Source of the DNA: Aurantiacibacter xanthus
GTDB taxonomy: Bacteria > Pseudomonadota > Alphaproteobacteria > Sphingomonadales > Sphingomonadaceae
Direction of reading: 5' to 3'
Assembly (NCBI RefSeq): GCF_003584015.1
Contig: NZ_QXFM01000010.1
Location: 1 to 64,000, forward strand
Length of the DNA: 64,000 nucleotides
Part shown: positions 4,699-15,977 of the stretch, piece by piece
How the letters are laid out: each line of letters opens with the position of its first letter
Numbering within the stretch: the first letter of the stretch is position 1
Translations under genes and position numbers: made by a program
The notes under the pieces: model-generated
Seen by the model: the letters and a program-made list of their open reading frames with translations, nothing else
Database searches by the model: none
Told to the model about the DNA's origin: nothing

Positions 4699-4922
4699 AA
4701 AGGCAAACCTACCATTGCTGCGACGGCTTGTCAGGGGGCGATTCGCGCACACTCGAGTCGTCAAAAAGTTCCCGCATCCCGCGAAAATATTTCGCAAATC
4801 CGCACGACTCATCCCGCGCAACCGTCAGTTCATCCCGTCTCAGCACCCCAAGCGGTCGACCTCACACACGCTTCCGCTATCGCCCCCCGCGGACAGGGGT
4901 AACGCGTCAAGCGGGGTCGACA
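4699..4922. promoter_or_regulatory. divergent promoter region, proA / M23 peptidase
   Basis: A gene-free stretch of about 220 bp between divergently read genes must carry both promoters. I see no clear -35/-10 pair or operator palindrome. Confidence 0.4.
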
Positions 4923-6110
4923 TTGGTTTTTCCTAAGGTTGCAAAGCGCCTTGCGCGCGTCCGCTCCTGGTTTCCCGAGCGTGAGTTCTTCATGCGCTCG
5001 CAAGGGCAGGTTCGCTTCATCAAGGTCAGCTCGCGCCTGCAGATGGGCGCTGCCGCCGTCGTGCTGACGGCTGGCCTGCTCTGGCTCGGCGCGCTCGGCA
5101 CCATGGCGGTCACCCAGTACCAGACCAGCAGCGAAATGGCCTCGCTGCTTGACCGCGAGGCGACCGTCGCCAGGTCGGAAGACCGGCTGGACGCCTATCG
5201 CGGCGATCTCGATGCCACCATGGCCGATCTTGCCAAGCGGCAGGATGTGCTCGACCAGCTCGCCGACGAACTGCCCGAAGACCTGCTGACCGACAGCGCC
5301 GACGACACCGTGAGCGATTCGAGCAAGGAGGCCACGCGCCTGATCAGCCTGGTGGGTGAGAGCTTTCCCGAGGCGGTTGGTCTGGCCCGGCTTGAGGCCC
5401 GCCAGCTCGCCTTCGTCGAGCGCATGACCCGCTTTGCCGACCGCCGTTCGCGCCGCGCCGAGGAGGCGCTGCGTTCGCTCGGGCTCGATCCGGCCTCGAT
5501 CCTCGCGCAGGACCGGGTCGCCACAGGTGGCCCACTCGAACTGCTGTCGACCGAGAGCGACGGTTCGCTCGATCCCCGCTTCGAACGGCTGGGCCTCAGC
5601 ATTGCCCGGATGAGCGCGCTCGAACGCGGGCTGGACGGGGTGCCGCAGGTGATGCCCGCCGATGCCGGGTCGATCAGTTCGGGCTTCGGTGTGCGCCACG
5701 ATCCGTTCAACGGCCACGCAGCGATGCACTCGGGCCTCGATTTCCGCGCGCCCTATGGCTCGCCGATCCACGCCGCCGCCGAGGGCGAGGTGACCTTCGT
5801 CGGGTTCAAGGGCGGCTATGGCCGCACGGTCGAGGTGAGCCACGGGTCGGGCATGATCACCCGTTATGCCCACATGTCGCGCTCATCGGCGAAGGTCGGC
5901 CAGAAGGTCGAGGCCGGCGCGGTGATCGGCGCCATCGGCAGCTCGGGCCGCTCGACCGGGCCGCATCTGCATTTCGAAGTTCGCATCAACGGGCGCGCGG
6001 TAAACCCGCGTCCGTTCCTGGAGACAGCCCCGCATGTTCTTGAAGAAGCAAGATCCAGCAGCCCTTCCCGCATCGCCGGGGAGCCAGGCGGAGCGACGGC
6101 GGGTGGCTAG
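4923..6110 (+). CDS. membrane-anchored M23 (LytM) family peptidase, DUF5930-type
   Basis: A cell-wall endopeptidase with an N-terminal transmembrane helix (about residues 40-62, MGAAAVVLTAGLLWLGALG), a periplasmic coiled-coil linker, and a C-terminal LytM domain with both zinc-ligand motifs, HSGLDFRAPYG and HLHFEVR (HxH). I chose a TTG start at 4923 because the segment WFPEREFFMRSQG, which resembles the conserved N-terminus of this family, would be lost from the ATG at 4992. Both starts are possible. Its last 77 bp overlap the bactofilin gene, so the two are translationally linked; peptidase-bactofilin pairs are known cell-shape modules. Confidence 0.85.
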   Translation: MVFPKVAKRLARVRSWFPEREFFMRSQGQVRFIKVSSRLQMGAAAVVLTAGLLWLGALGTMAVTQYQTSSEMASLLDREATVARSEDRLDAYRGDLDATMADLAKRQDVLDQLADELPEDLLTDSADDTVSDSSKEATRLISLVGESFPEAVGLARLEARQLAFVERMTRFADRRSRRAEEALRSLGLDPASILAQDRVATGGPLELLSTESDGSLDPRFERLGLSIARMSALERGLDGVPQVMPADAGSISSGFGVRHDPFNGHAAMHSGLDFRAPYGSPIHAAAEGEVTFVGFKGGYGRTVEVSHGSGMITRYAHMSRSSAKVGQKVEAGAVIGAIGSSGRSTGPHLHFEVRINGRAVNPRPFLETAPHVLEEARSSSPSRIAGEPGGATAGG

Positions 6111-12060: not shown

Positions 12061-14430
12061 ATGCCCAGTTTCGCGCAGAACCTCGAAAAGACCCTCCACA
12101 CCGCGATCCAGCACGCGATCGACCGCACGCATGAATATGCGACGCTCGAACACCTGCTGCTGGCGCTGGTCAACGATTCCGACGCGGCCGAAGTGATGAC
12201 CGCCTGCGGGGTCGACCTGGAAGAGCTGGCGAACGTGGTGCGGCAGTATCTCGATCAGGAATACCAGTCGCTGAAATCCTCCGACCAGGCCGATCCGCAG
12301 CCGACCGCCGGGTTCCAGCGGGTGATCCAGCGCGCGATCCTGCACGTGCAGACCTCGGGCAAGGACACCGTGACCGGCGCCAATGTGCTGGTCGCGCTGT
12401 TCTCCGAGCGCGACAGCTATGCGGTCTATTTCCTCCAGCAGCAGGATATGAGCCGATTGGACGCGGTGAGCTTCATCAGCCACGGCATCGGCAAGAACGG
12501 CCGCCAGATCGAGAACCGCAACCCGCAAGGCACCGAAGAGCCCGAGGCGGCCAAGGCCGAGGAAAAGCCCGACCCCAAGAACAAGAAGGATTCGGCGCTC
12601 GACCAGTTCTGCGTGAACCTCAACCAGAAGGCGCTGGACGGCAAGGTCGACCCGCTGATCGGGCGCGGTCCCGAGGTTGATCGCACGGTGCAGATCCTGT
12701 GCCGCCGCTCGAAGAACAACCCGCTCTACGTGGGCGACCCCGGCGTCGGCAAGACCGCCATCGCCGAAGGCCTCGCGCGCAAGATCGTCGAGGGCGACGT
12801 GCCCGAGGTGCTCGAAGAGGCGGTGATCTATTCGCTCGACATGGGCTCGCTGCTCGCTGGCACCCGCTATCGCGGTGACTTCGAGGAACGGCTGAAGCAG
12901 GTCGTCTCCGAACTGGAGAAAATGCCCGAGGCCGTCCTGTTCATCGACGAAATTCACACGGTGATCGGCGCCGGCGCCACCAGCGGCGGGGCGATGGACG
13001 CCTCGAACCTGCTCAAGCCCGCGCTGTCTTCGGGCGCGATCCGCTGCATCGGCTCGACCACCTACAAGGAGTTCCGCAACCACTTCGAGAAGGACCGCGC
13101 CCTGCTGCGCCGGTTTCAGAAGATCGACGTGAACGAGCCTTCGGTGGAGGATACGATCAAGATCCTGCGCGGGTTGCGCACGGCCTTCGAGGAACACCAC
13201 AAGGTCAAGTACACGCCCGATGCGATCAAGACCGCGGTGGAACTGAGCGCGCGCTACATCAATGACCGCAAGCTGCCCGACAAGGCCATCGACGTGATCG
13301 ACGAGGTCGGCGCGATGCAGATGCTGGTGCCGCCGAGCCGCCGCCGCAAGACGATCACCGCGAGGGAGATCGAGAAGGTCATCGCGACCATGGCACGCAT
13401 TCCTCCCAAGTCGGTCAGCAAGGACGACAAGGCGGCGCTCGCCAACCTTGAGAAAGACCTCAAGCGCGTGGTGTTCGGGCAGGATCAGGCGATCGATCGC
13501 CTCTCTACCGCCATGAAGCTTTCGCGCGCCGGTCTGCGTGACCCTGACAAGCCGATCGGCTCGTTCCTGTTTTCCGGCCCCACCGGCGTCGGCAAGACCG
13601 AGGTCGCGCGCCAGCTTGCCTCGATCATGGGGATCGAGCTGAAGCGCTTCGACATGTCCGAATATATGGAGCGCCACAGCGTCTCGCGCCTGATCGGTGC
13701 GCCTCCGGGCTATGTCGGCTACGATCAGGGTGGCCTGCTCACCGATGCCATCGACCAGCACCCGCACTGCGTGCTGCTGCTCGACGAGATCGAGAAGGCG
13801 CACCCCGACCTGTTCAACATCCTGCTGCAGGTGATGGATAACGGCCGCCTGACCGATCACCACGGCAAGACGGTCGATTTCCGCAACGTGGTGCTGATCA
13901 TGACCACCAATGCGGGCGCGTCGGATGCGGCCAAGCAGGGGATCGGCTTCGGCAGCGGCACCAAGGTCGAGGCGGCGGAAGAGGCGGTGAAGAAGATGTT
14001 CACCCCCGAATTCCGCAACCGCCTGGATGCCATCGTGCCGTTCGGCTATCTCGGCAAGGACACGATCAGCCGCGTGGTCGACAAGTTCATCCTCCAGCTC
14101 GAACTGCAGCTGGCCGACCAGAACGTGCACATCCAGTTCGACAGCGATGCGCGCGAATGGCTGGGCGAACGCGGCTACGACAAGCTGATGGGCGCGCGCC
14201 CGATGGGCCGCCTGATTCAGGAGAAGGTGAAGCAGCCGCTCGCCGAAGAGCTGCTGTTCGGCAAGCTCGCGCACGGCGGCGAGGTCCATGTCAACGTGAA
14301 GGAAGACAAGCTGACCTTCGAGCTGACCGCCGCTCCGCCCAAGGCCAAGCCGAAGAAGGCGCGCAAGAAGCCGGCCGCGAAGAAACAGCAAGGCGATGCC
14401 TCGGCCGAGGGCAGCACCTCGGAAGACTGA
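12061..14430 (+). CDS. clpA: ATP-dependent Clp protease ATP-binding subunit ClpA
   Basis: An AAA+ unfoldase feeding ClpP. The two-repeat Clp N-domain spans about residues 1-145. AAA module 1 has Walker A GDPGVGKT (about 224-231) and FIDEIHTVIGAG. AAA module 2 has Walker A GPTGVGKT (about 506-513), LLLDEIEKAHPD and MTTNAGA. The last ~30 residues are Lys/Ala-rich (KPKKARKKPAAKK), longer than the usual end. At 789 residues without a middle coiled-coil domain, it is ClpA and not ClpB. clpS, often directly upstream, is absent; the 188-bp leader (11873-12060) should hold its own promoter. Confidence 0.96.
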   Translation: MPSFAQNLEKTLHTAIQHAIDRTHEYATLEHLLLALVNDSDAAEVMTACGVDLEELANVVRQYLDQEYQSLKSSDQADPQPTAGFQRVIQRAILHVQTSGKDTVTGANVLVALFSERDSYAVYFLQQQDMSRLDAVSFISHGIGKNGRQIENRNPQGTEEPEAAKAEEKPDPKNKKDSALDQFCVNLNQKALDGKVDPLIGRGPEVDRTVQILCRRSKNNPLYVGDPGVGKTAIAEGLARKIVEGDVPEVLEEAVIYSLDMGSLLAGTRYRGDFEERLKQVVSELEKMPEAVLFIDEIHTVIGAGATSGGAMDASNLLKPALSSGAIRCIGSTTYKEFRNHFEKDRALLRRFQKIDVNEPSVEDTIKILRGLRTAFEEHHKVKYTPDAIKTAVELSARYINDRKLPDKAIDVIDEVGAMQMLVPPSRRRKTITAREIEKVIATMARIPPKSVSKDDKAALANLEKDLKRVVFGQDQAIDRLSTAMKLSRAGLRDPDKPIGSFLFSGPTGVGKTEVARQLASIMGIELKRFDMSEYMERHSVSRLIGAPPGYVGYDQGGLLTDAIDQHPHCVLLLDEIEKAHPDLFNILLQVMDNGRLTDHHGKTVDFRNVVLIMTTNAGASDAAKQGIGFGSGTKVEAAEEAVKKMFTPEFRNRLDAIVPFGYLGKDTISRVVDKFILQLELQLADQNVHIQFDSDAREWLGERGYDKLMGARPMGRLIQEKVKQPLAEELLFGKLAHGGEVHVNVKEDKLTFELTAAPPKAKPKKARKKPAAKKQQGDASAEGSTSED

Positions 14431-14490: not shown

Positions 14491-14534
14491 GCGTTATCCA
14501 CCAGAGTCTTGGGGGATAAACCCGAGGCGTCCTT

Positions 14535-14547
14535 GACCGAATCGGTC
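14535..14547. promoter_or_regulatory. GACCGA-A-TCGGTC palindrome
   Basis: A perfect 6-bp inverted repeat with one central base, about 135 bp upstream of the Shine-Dalgarno of the microprotein gene. It could be an operator or the foot of an RNA hairpin; no binding protein is suggested by sequence alone. Confidence 0.35.
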
Positions 14548-14558
14548 TCGCAGTACTG

Positions 14559-14826
14559 AAGTGAAATTGGTCGCGTGACCACTTTGTTTGATCTCAGAAC
14601 CTTGAGCCCCTTTTGAGCGCGAGAGGCGAGAGGCTTTTCGGAGACGTCGGGCTCTACCCGATCTTCAAACAAAGGAGGTGGCTATGAGAAGCGTATTTGT
14701 GCGTTCTTATATCCGCTGGCGCTTTGGCCGTTGGGAGAGTGTGTGTCAGCACACTCGACGTTGGCCTCGTCAGTACTCGTTTAACTTCTAAACGAGAGCA
14801 GTGAACTCGGTCACGCGGCCACTTTT
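14559..14826. repeat. pair of GTGAA..GGTC..CCACTTT hairpin elements flanking the microprotein gene
   Basis: Copy A (14559-14585) and copy B (14800-14826) share the frame AGTGAA-n3-GGTC-n4-CCACTTT, each able to fold by GGTC/GACC (or GGCC) and GTG/CAC pairing. Both are preceded by CAGTACT (14551-14557 and 14771-14777). The base changes between copies partly keep pairing. The copies bracket the 35-codon gene at 14684. Confidence 0.55.
14684..14791 (+). CDS. 35-residue Arg/aromatic-rich microprotein, unknown function
   Basis: A short gene (MRSVFVRSYIRWRFG...) with 8 Arg, 9 aromatic residues, one Cys and a single acidic residue, so strongly cationic. It is preceded by AAAGGAGGTG (14671-14680), ten bases complementary to the usual 16S rRNA 3' end and only 3 nt from ATG. 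That is exceptional in this window and the main reason to believe it is translated. The coding part also contains two perfect 7-bp hairpins (14737-14756, and 14776-14796 across the stop codon). No signal peptide is seen. It could be a leader peptide, an RNA- or membrane-binding microprotein, or a dual-function RNA. No homologue is claimed. Confidence 0.6.
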   Translation: MRSVFVRSYIRWRFGRWESVCQHTRRWPRQYSFNF

Positions 14827-14861
14827 CCCAACGACCCTGTATCCATACTGGACGCAGTTTG

Positions 14862-14934
14862 TTCGCACATTGCGAATCCCAGTTCAATATGTGCCCGAGC
14901 TATATTTTCGCCTGTCAACCGAGCTGACGACAGG
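14862..14934. repeat. hairpins upstream of the exonuclease gene
   Basis: TTCGCA-CAT-TGCGAA (14862-14876) and CCTGTC/GACAGG (14911-14916 with 14929-14934) are perfect inverted repeats in the lower-GC leader between the microprotein gene and the exonuclease start at 14967. They continue the hairpin-rich character of the 14.5-14.95 kb stretch. Confidence 0.4.
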
Positions 14935-14966
14935 AACTCCACAGCTTTCCGCACAGTTTATAGACT

Positions 14967-15977
14967 ATGAGCTCCGCCCCCCACTGGATCCAGCCGCACC
15001 CGCAGGGCATCTACGTCGCCCCGGCCGATTGCTGGGTCGATCCTTCGGTGGCGGTCGAAAGGGCGCTGGTCACGCATGGCCATGCCGACCACGCGCGCGG
15101 CGGCCACGGCGAAACGCTTGCAACCCCGGAAACGCTCGCGATCATGGACCTGCGCTACAACACGCGGGCGGGCGCGGTGCCCGTCGCCTATGGCGAAACC
15201 TTACGGCTCGCAGGCTCTGTCGATGCCACTTATCTGCCCGCCGGGCACGTGCTCGGCTCGGCGCAGATCCTGCTCGAACACGCGGGCGAGCGGGTGGTGA
15301 TCACCGGCGACTACAAGCGCCGCCCCGATCCGACCTGCGCCCCGTTCGAACTCGCGCCATGCGACATCTTCATCACCGAGGCGACCTTCGGTCTGCCGAT
15401 CTTCACCCACCCGCCGATTGCCGAGGAGATCGGCAAGCTGCTCGGCGCGCTGGCGGCCAACCCCGAGGCTTGCGTGCTGGTGGGCGCCTATGCACTGGGC
15501 AAGGCCCAGCGGGTGATCGCCGAACTGCGCGCGGCAGGCCATCACGATCCGATCTACCTCCACGGCGCGATGGAACGGATGTGCCGCCTCTATGAAGAGC
15601 TCGGCGTGCCGCTTGGCGAGCTGCGGCTGGTGGCCGATCACACCAAGGAAGATATGCGCGGCGCTATCGTCATCTGCCCGCCCTCGGCGCTGAACGACCG
15701 CTGGAGCCGCCGTTTGCCCGATCCGATCACCGCCATGGCGAGCGGCTGGATGCGCGTGCGCCAGCGCGCCCGCCAGCGCAATGTCGAGCTGCCGCTGGTG
15801 ATCTCCGACCATGCCGACTGGCACGAGCTGACGCGCACGGTCGAAGAGGTGAACCCGCGCGAGACCTGGATCACCCATGGCCGCGAGGAGGCGCTGCTGC
15901 GCTGGCACGAGCTGCACCAGCGCAAGGCCCGCGCGCTGGCGCTGGTGGGATATGAGGATGAGGATGAGGATGACTGA
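14967..15977 (+). CDS. ligase-associated DNA exonuclease (metallo-beta-lactamase/beta-CASP fold)
   Basis: A 336-residue MBL-fold nuclease with THGHADHARGG (HxHxDH at residues 37-42), GHVLGSAQI, ITGDYKRR and a C-terminal SDHADWHEL. These match the mRNA 3'-processing exonuclease-like family encoded beside ATP-dependent DNA ligases in bacteria and proposed to act in DNA repair. The ligase follows 124 bp downstream on the same strand. The C-terminus ends in alternating Glu/Asp (YEDEDEDD). Confidence 0.92.
   Translation: MSSAPHWIQPHPQGIYVAPADCWVDPSVAVERALVTHGHADHARGGHGETLATPETLAIMDLRYNTRAGAVPVAYGETLRLAGSVDATYLPAGHVLGSAQILLEHAGERVVITGDYKRRPDPTCAPFELAPCDIFITEATFGLPIFTHPPIAEEIGKLLGALAANPEACVLVGAYALGKAQRVIAELRAAGHHDPIYLHGAMERMCRLYEELGVPLGELRLVADHTKEDMRGAIVICPPSALNDRWSRRLPDPITAMASGWMRVRQRARQRNVELPLVISDHADWHELTRTVEEVNPRETWITHGREEALLRWHELHQRKARALALVGYEDEDEDD

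Follow-up and report, generated by a model that had tools for sequence, protein, structure and literature searches.

In Aurantiacibacter xanthus, a 35-codon open reading frame lying between clpA and an exonuclease-like gene is, close to certainly, a real gene of a conserved microprotein family, and it is about as certain that, in the type-A branch of this family, the gene is enclosed by an RNA with base-paired ends. The locus belongs to a 64,000-nucleotide stretch of the forward strand of contig NZ_QXFM01000010.1, the whole of which is called the window below. Half of the family is without the C-terminal tail or the sealed RNA that we describe here. We tentatively favour, at somewhat less than an even chance, the view that the unit is an accessory gene comparable to phage morons, the microprotein being made from a self-sealed messenger and docking on the sliding clamp, DnaN. 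The helix joining the ends, a second helix reaching the Shine-Dalgarno sequence and the C-terminal motif come in addition to what a first-pass annotation had noticed at this place. The features are the following, in window coordinates.

about 14494-14966, no strand: low-G+C stretch that separates the clpA terminator from the exonuclease-like gene and is without counterpart in a related genome (G020), from comparison with the corresponding locus (L095)
14533-14538, + strand: -35-like box TTGACC, with a predicted transcription start at about 14569 and no clear -10 box in the window
14569-14580, + strand: 5' arm of P1, the helix joining the transcript ends, GGTCGCGTGACC (covariation, 16 loci)
14582-14591, + strand: 5' strand of P2, CTTTGTTTGA, a perfect 10-bp inverted repeat with 14665-14674 (pair probabilities 0.86-1.00)
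14592-14644, + strand: inner stems P3 (14592-14598/14638-14644), P3b (14600-14602/14631-14633) and P4 (14609-14614/14621-14626), from the RNAalifold consensus of 16 loci
14646-14661, + strand: hairpin P5 (14646-14650/14657-14661), reached by 1 of 1000 shuffles
14665-14674, + strand: 3' strand of P2, TCAAACAAAG, overlapping the AAAG of the Shine-Dalgarno sequence
14671-14680, + strand: extended Shine-Dalgarno sequence AAAGGAGGTG, separated by GCT from ATG 14684, partly paired in the predicted fold
14684-14791, + strand: 35-codon microprotein gene, MRSVFVRSYIRWRFGRWESVCQHTRRWPRQYSFNF (conserved family, pN<pS, AF2 model)
14726-14759, + strand: conserved hairpin within the reading frame (11 bp in the consensus, 146/176 standard cells, 0/1000 block shuffles)
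14771-14788, + strand: codons for the C-terminal QYSFNF, a clamp-binding-like tail (motif count and residue-shuffle test)
14809-14820, + strand: 3' arm of P1, GGTCACGCGGCC, then ACTTTT (covariation, 16 loci)
14901-14943, + strand: distal boxes TATATTTTC ... TCCACA (recurrence in type-A loci)

The microprotein family

Selection acts at the level of the protein. Over 16 sphingomonad type-A copies pS averages 0.69 and pN 0.21, and not one of the 120 pairs departs from pN<pS, which rules out a chance reading frame. The first-pass annotation had counted 8 Arg and 9 aromatics, figures that our recount returns unchanged (8 Arg and 9 F/W/Y among 35 residues), and it had correctly placed a ten-base Shine-Dalgarno sequence before the start codon; that ten-mer occurs twice in the window, both strands being counted and its own copy included. 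It had also proposed that conservation be sought in relatives. The frame is kept there, and over 37 aligned sequences eight residues are invariant (Y9, R11, R13, G15, E18, V20, H23 and R25, that is Y.R.R.G..E.V..H.R), all of them present in the window peptide; in L092 a Tyr replaces the invariant His, so that invariance holds for the 37-sequence set and not for every later member. The AF2 model places four strands in residues 3-26 (mean pLDDT 80.8, pTM 0.39) and gives residues 32-35 a pLDDT below 50, consistent with a free tail.

Strong matches (E<=1e-16) are found in 3 of 61 genomes, 37 of these 61 being of the same genus, window included, and one of the three carriers has a second copy at 5.8e-9. 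At E<=5e-13 a four-row profile matches 14 of 397 genomes of the bacterial family; with 37 rows and E<=0.001, 13 of 398 genomes of the phylum match. The window genome is included both times. Looser counts (45/61 and 101/397 genomes) are mostly noise, with type-B members among the weaker matches. Phage relatives came from tblastn (Oslo, phi-8 and ENT4, E 0.01 to 3), and the ENT4 protein, used as a query, retrieved 134 plasmid records at E<=10, the best at 2e-5, of which 117 have at least 80% query coverage; beyond four phage loci, 16 records were examined as phage or plasmid loci. When a type-A query was used, tblastn of plasmids gave no match, and tblastn of phages one partial match, to a Gordonia phage methyltransferase (E 5). 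Contigs of IMG/VR decode as members in 30/30 and 15/18 cases in two DNA-pattern scans that ignored the tail, and 17/33 contigs did so in a genome scan with a pattern that demanded the tail's Gln codon, members being called by a regular expression built around the core. The carriers are sphingomonad chromosomes, proteobacterial plasmids and P2-like and lambdoid phages, and copies also have IS1595 transposases or phage-type terminase genes as neighbours. Each reading frame was begun at the ATG nearest upstream of the core, and some N-termini may therefore be short. Among the 40 plasmid records listed, of 134, 38 show no annotated feature under the match, in a gene table that is incomplete.

The core also appears in other arrangements. 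It is tandemly duplicated in L039 and L117, giving a 53-residue double-core protein. One of the phylum matches, L091 (G725:C166:1392-1475, minus strand), lies within a 365-aa open frame, where a core-like motif follows a stretch that, by eye, resembles a peptidoglycan-binding domain; the core may thus also be a domain of larger proteins.

The first-pass annotation held that nothing in the sequence names the function of the gene. As regards curated families this stands: at E up to 10, no Pfam or NCBIfam family matches the window protein and two relatives, and no PADLOC model the window protein and four relatives; the 37-row profile reaches a best E of only 0.35 against PDB sequences, and Foldseek returns nothing from the PDB at E<=0.001. 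The single family match is phrog_21154 (window protein E 7.6e-7, one type-B member 9.3e-9), a PHROG with function unassigned that groups small proteins of vB_SosS_Oslo and probably VT2-Sa and is, by profile, the same family. Its 47 positions make it N-terminally longer than the window protein, and the match stops at residue 28, so that the tail is not in the profile; no RNA element is described for it in the literature searched. The 40-aa protein of VT2-Sa is also Foldseek's best viral match to the window model, with a probability of 0.99 but an E of 0.55. No title or abstract describing this microprotein family was found in a search with most subscription papers outside its scope.

The tail is where the claim of the first-pass annotation loses some ground, since it resembles the motif by which proteins bind the sliding clamp. 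Among 90 distinct proteins, 38 of the 40 with at least 9 residues past the core end in Q[LMYI]x[LF], then F or xF/xL, as against none of the 50 that are short-tailed; with residues shuffled within the tails, the motif turns up in 0.3 of 40 on average and in 4 of 40 at most. Set aside before counting were weak genome-search loci judged non-members, L045 (in which no core was found), repeats of identical proteins and two viral members whose frames exceed 150 aa; type-A tails, being of shared ancestry, are not independent. Exact QLSLF was met in two phage members, and QMDLF, QMSLF and QLTLF in others, by scans blind to the tail. The window's own QYSFNF, whose positions 4 and 6 are F, is a relaxed form and departs from the strict QLxLF; in the same genome, the Y-family polymerase ends in QLSLL. 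In PMC9690074 and PMC3716654 the bacterial clamp motif is given as QL(S/D)LF, mostly C-terminal, and PMC4549789 reports that looser forms bind too and that transposases employ the same motif. Missing from 52 of the 90 distinct proteins, the clamp motif is not the family's core function.

An RNA with paired ends

A folding energy of -115.2 kcal/mol is computed for the predicted transcript (14567-14826), with a z of -6.20, and none of 200 dinucleotide shuffles is as stable, which bears out the earlier description of the locus as hairpin-rich. Its ends meet in P1, all 12 positions of which are standard pairs in 16/16 loci, with two to five pair types each (the register of L032 being set by hand); aligned automatically, the loci still pair in 186 of 192 cells, a figure that 1000 block shuffles, with a mean of 138.7 and a maximum of 168, never reach. 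In the 16 type-A copies the 5' arm starts 109-124 nt before the ATG and the 3' arm lies within 22-38 nt past the stop. TTGAC stands 35-38 nt before the 5' arm in 12/16 type-A loci, and no other copy occurs in any of the 16 upstream regions of 400 nt; this spacing, together with the covariation of P1, makes an RNA that starts at the 5' arm and has paired ends the most likely arrangement; we infer a transcription start near 14569.

Covariation, which the first-pass annotation had suggested modelling, extends inwards: over the 16 loci, P1, P3b and the hairpin within the reading frame beat 1000 of 1000 shuffles, while P3 is reached by 15 and P4 by 1 of 1000. Three more small helices in the reading frame are without support (135, 1000 and 421 of 1000 shuffles reach the observed value). 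A P2-like helix of 8-18 pairs is found, locus by locus, in 16/16 (p<=0.05 against shuffles in 10/16), its 3' strand ending 3-10 nt before the ATG in every case. In the consensus, P2 is 14581-14590/14670-14679, with 122/160 cells pairing and 0/1000 shuffles as good; this register differs from the window's own, and 122/160 is hence a rough figure. Both of the 7-bp hairpins reported earlier inside the gene are present (14737-14756, and within 14775-14795 over the stop codon), but the second, which forms in the window's own fold, is missing from the 16-locus consensus and broken in L027. The palindromes noted on either side (14535-14547, 14862-14876 and 14911-14934) are likewise there, yet all fall outside the conserved RNA, 14569-14820. 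We dropped them as a functional core. In L002, the nearest relative, the first is already imperfect, and in the window it shares bases with the -35 box; the conservation of the other two was judged by eye. Rfam 15 has no match in the window above the gathering score, and in 14 related loci it gave two weak matches, below the gathering score and away from the element.

What this folding does to translation is a matter of prediction. Averaged over 16 loci, the unpaired probability of the Shine-Dalgarno sequence is 0.30 with the RNA complete, falls to 0.19 when the 3' part is removed and rises to 0.42 when the first 22 nt are. With slice and truncation varied, it is 0.29-0.31 in the presence of the 3' arm vs 0.19-0.25, the former being higher at 11 to 14 of the 16 loci; a sign test on 13/16 gives p 0.02. 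In the window alone the effect of P1 is small and its sign depends on slice and truncation. The folds suggest that P2 masks the Shine-Dalgarno sequence and that P1, on average, slightly unmasks it, so that P1 would not be a simple lock. Predicted folding thus fits a better reading of finished, end-paired messages, or a protection of the ends, more readily than a lock of the hok kind. The first-pass annotation had thought of a dual-function RNA and microprotein: a structured RNA that encodes a real microprotein is strongly supported, by pN<pS and by the covariation of P1, and the RNA may also do more than carry and control the reading frame.

The sealed RNA is less widespread than the protein. 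Of 88 distinct elements, each compared with 200 dinucleotide shuffles, 46 show end-pairing at p<=0.05, about 4 of 88 being expected by chance at this level with p-values left uncorrected. By class, as labelled with regular expressions, it is found in 25/28 elements of type A, 7/7 of P2 phages, 5/5 of enterobacterial plasmids, 7/14 of type C, 1/11 of type B and 1/23 of the others; loci with too little flank were left out. The same test detected none in all seven phage members tested that have Qx-x-LF tails. The protein therefore appears as the universal part, the sealed RNA being confined to some branches. The dinucleotide-shuffle test replaced two others, run on a 54-locus set from which six near-identical or repeated phage or plasmid loci and L091 were left out: RNAduplex, which sums long interior loops, was uninformative (native best in column 4/54, in row 1/54), and a local-helix test with foreign-arm controls was unsuitable, homologous stems confounding it (5/54 and 9/54, respectively).

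Sites and neighbours

At 52.0% G+C (14494-14966) vs 65.8% for the 64-kb window, the site is lower in G+C than its surroundings, as had been stated at the outset. It is chromosomal, and bordered by clpA (12061-14430, a name taken from the first-pass annotation) and by 14967-15977, the product of which we take to be exonuclease-like. Neither a defence gene nor a convergent effector adjoins the window copy, and its stretch of about 470 bp is without a transposase. Four other loci have the same order, with clpA 86-97% identical to that of the window, and the site holds the element in 6 distinct elements. In G020, which among 18 genomes is the closest by its exonuclease-like protein, clpA adjoins the exonuclease-like gene over a short spacer, with no element between, and this empty junction is equally compatible with a loss there or an insertion in the window. 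Besides G020, clpA lies within 1.5 kb of the exonuclease in 3 of 16 relatives with an exonuclease locus examined (L101, L109 and L110); in eleven of the 16 it does not, and the genomes of these eleven have no match. Past the stop codon, a TATATTTTC-like box occurs in 7/16 and TCCACA in 9/16 type-A loci (within 200 nt), recurring at 93-109 and 123-149 nt, respectively, in several of them; the boxes are also present in L003, a different site without clpA or exonuclease neighbours.

A survey of neighbours covered 114 loci, with 95 distinct element sequences; these were pooled from a number of searches and are not representative. Each class of neighbour was defined by blast similarity to a single query, with Pfam or PADLOC run on representatives only. 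A convergent AAA_13-type gene is found in 25/114 loci (17/95 distinct elements), and 17 of these 25 loci also have a P2-like gpA gene directly upstream. The three AAA_13 neighbours scanned all match PADLOC PDC-S06. By alignment, the convergent gene begins 17-70 nt past the stop in 25/25 AAA_13 loci, 35 nt past it for an AbiD gene and 29 nt for a DUF3800 gene (PDC-M04A), these last two being carried by two Acinetobacter plasmids; NYN and RES genes are also among the defence-type neighbours. An IS1595-type transposase lies downstream, in convergent orientation, in 11/114 loci, made up of six among the 11 type-B loci of sphingomonads and five other loci (Pfam run on one). Among IS1595-linked copies, L083, L092 and L116 have a clamp-like tail, and the six of type B are without it. 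A phage-type terminase is present in 9 loci (6 distinct elements), with a portal gene on the opposite side in 8, and clpA in 9 loci (6 distinct elements). The terminase-linked loci may be gene transfer agent clusters or prophages.

Several local arrangements were noted along the way. In L025, L033, L035, L039, L121 and L141 the element is reversed relative to the adjoining phage-type terminase, with the portal mostly on the other side. The 26-aa copies of type B (L040, L041, L043, L046, L048, L049, L052 and L057) share a conserved gene on their left, with a product of about 240-350 aa; one representative of it was scanned, and neither Pfam nor PADLOC matches it. Around one G001 copy (L024), 52-nt direct repeats that are 87% identical lie 531 nt apart (4712-4763 and 5243-5294); an integron-type origin was dropped, there being only two copies in the surrounding 10 kb. 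On Salmonella plasmids, a small open reading frame convergent with the phage-type copy (L072 3411-3581, L081 3129-3323) is annotated fumD, which looks doubtful.

What the element may do

We can picture the element as a compact unit with its own predicted promoter, transcribed from the 5' arm if the TTGAC box is taken as a guide. The ends of the transcript would pair as P1 and the 5' leader would branch, P2 reaching the Shine-Dalgarno sequence, in helices read from covariation; protection of the ends and control of translation may be their role. Translation would give a basic peptide, kept by selection on the protein and predicted to be four-stranded, the flexible tail of which, to judge from its motif, may dock in the binding cleft of DnaN, while the basic core may touch nucleic acid or a partner in the replisome. 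The likely effect would be to interfere with replication or to modulate it, be it that of an invading phage or that of the host in an abortive response, as many relatives reside in accessory regions of phages and plasmids beside defence-type genes. That 6 distinct elements are retained between clpA and the exonuclease-like gene speaks against a strong toxin.

Known systems offer partial likenesses. SocB, of SocAB, is reported to bind the clamp through a clamp motif, and it and RipA are described as clamp-targeting toxins that act on the hydrophobic pocket of the clamp; the microprotein would work alike, although, unlike theirs, its reading frame is embedded in an RNA, and no protein antitoxin is seen beside it in the window. 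The TTGAC box (a predicted promoter), the several unrelated sites and the absence at one orthologous site would be in keeping with a phage moron, the window site itself being chromosomal. The gpA-portal region of P2 is an anti-phage hotspot according to PMC9122126, and the 17 loci in which the element follows gpA and has a convergent AAA_13 gene are placed like the hotspot genes there (old, tin and their replacements); unlike these, the microprotein has no PADLOC match (5 members) and the window copy is chromosomal.

The RNA has a likeness to the type I toxin mRNAs hok and AapA3, and this opens the way to another reading, which we think improbable: a type I toxin-like gene, the end-paired mRNA silencing a toxic peptide until processing or the loss of an antisense RNA, and so stabilizing plasmids and prophages. 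A small reading frame with a strong Shine-Dalgarno sequence, a helix at that sequence, an end-paired structured mRNA and a plasmid or prophage setting are what it would predict, and hok and AapA mRNAs fold comparably, with long-distance and Shine-Dalgarno-sequestering structures, according to PMC6733600. The peptide, however, with 8 Arg in 35 residues, is basic and aromatic where those toxins are small and hydrophobic; moreover, P1 competes with the masking of the Shine-Dalgarno sequence in the folds instead of raising it, and the gene is stably retained at the clpA-exonuclease site. It is rather more doubtful still that the RNA is the main product, for instance as an antitoxin or regulator of a convergent effector (AAA_13, AbiD or DUF3800), the peptide being secondary. 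The short distances at which these effectors begin are in its favour, as is a C. difficile RNA that, according to PMC12373285, neutralizes a toxin of the Abi_2/AbiD/F family. It is the protein, however, and not the end-paired RNA that all branches share; Rfam gives no match above the gathering score, and no effector is adjacent in the window.

The tail admits a milder reading, with an equally small likelihood, in which the microprotein is a harmless adaptor tying a nucleic-acid-binding core to replicating DNA through the clamp, and so aiding replication, repair, transposition or transfer of the element that carries it. IS1595-family transposons carry passenger genes. The clamp-like tail, the 11 loci with an IS1595-type transposase, of which three copies are tailed, the terminase setting in 6 distinct elements and retention at the clpA-exonuclease site point in this direction, as does the use of the same motif by transposases (PMC4549789). 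Yet the six IS1595-linked type-B copies have no such tail, and on plasmids and in the P2 hotspot other members have defence-type neighbours. Finally, a leader peptide or attenuator of the exonuclease-like gene might be imagined, as the reading frame is on the same strand, 176 nt upstream, and kept in 6 distinct elements; this we regard as very improbable. Relatives adjoin unrelated and often convergent genes (exonuclease, terminase, AAA_13, AbiD, DUF3800, IS1595 transposase), and G020 has the exonuclease-like gene without the element. The translated regulatory leader offered in the first-pass annotation fails likewise: there is no constant gene to lead.

We come back, therefore, to an accessory microprotein made from a self-sealed mRNA and docking on DnaN. 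A broader proposal, which we consider unlikely but worth stating, is that of a new class of RNA-enclosed microproteins, basic beta-sheet peptides of 25-55 residues acting as a shared weapon or shield, with an end-sealed RNA in several branches, one branch aimed at the clamp by its C-terminal motif and another serving convergent AAA_13 (PDC-S06) ATPases as a partner, RNA or peptide, that has gone unrecognised; such a class would span proteobacterial phages, plasmids, transposons and phage-type gene clusters. Genes so small escape annotation. This family is spread over phages, conjugative plasmids, transposons and chromosomes, its signature is invariant and several branches add a shell of covarying RNA, so that it offers a target ready for experiments. 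If the tail binds DnaN, this would be a very small natural protein targeting the clamp, and a lead on the control of replication; if the microprotein partners the AAA_13 genes convergent with it, a gene listed as a defence candidate has so far lacked one of its components.
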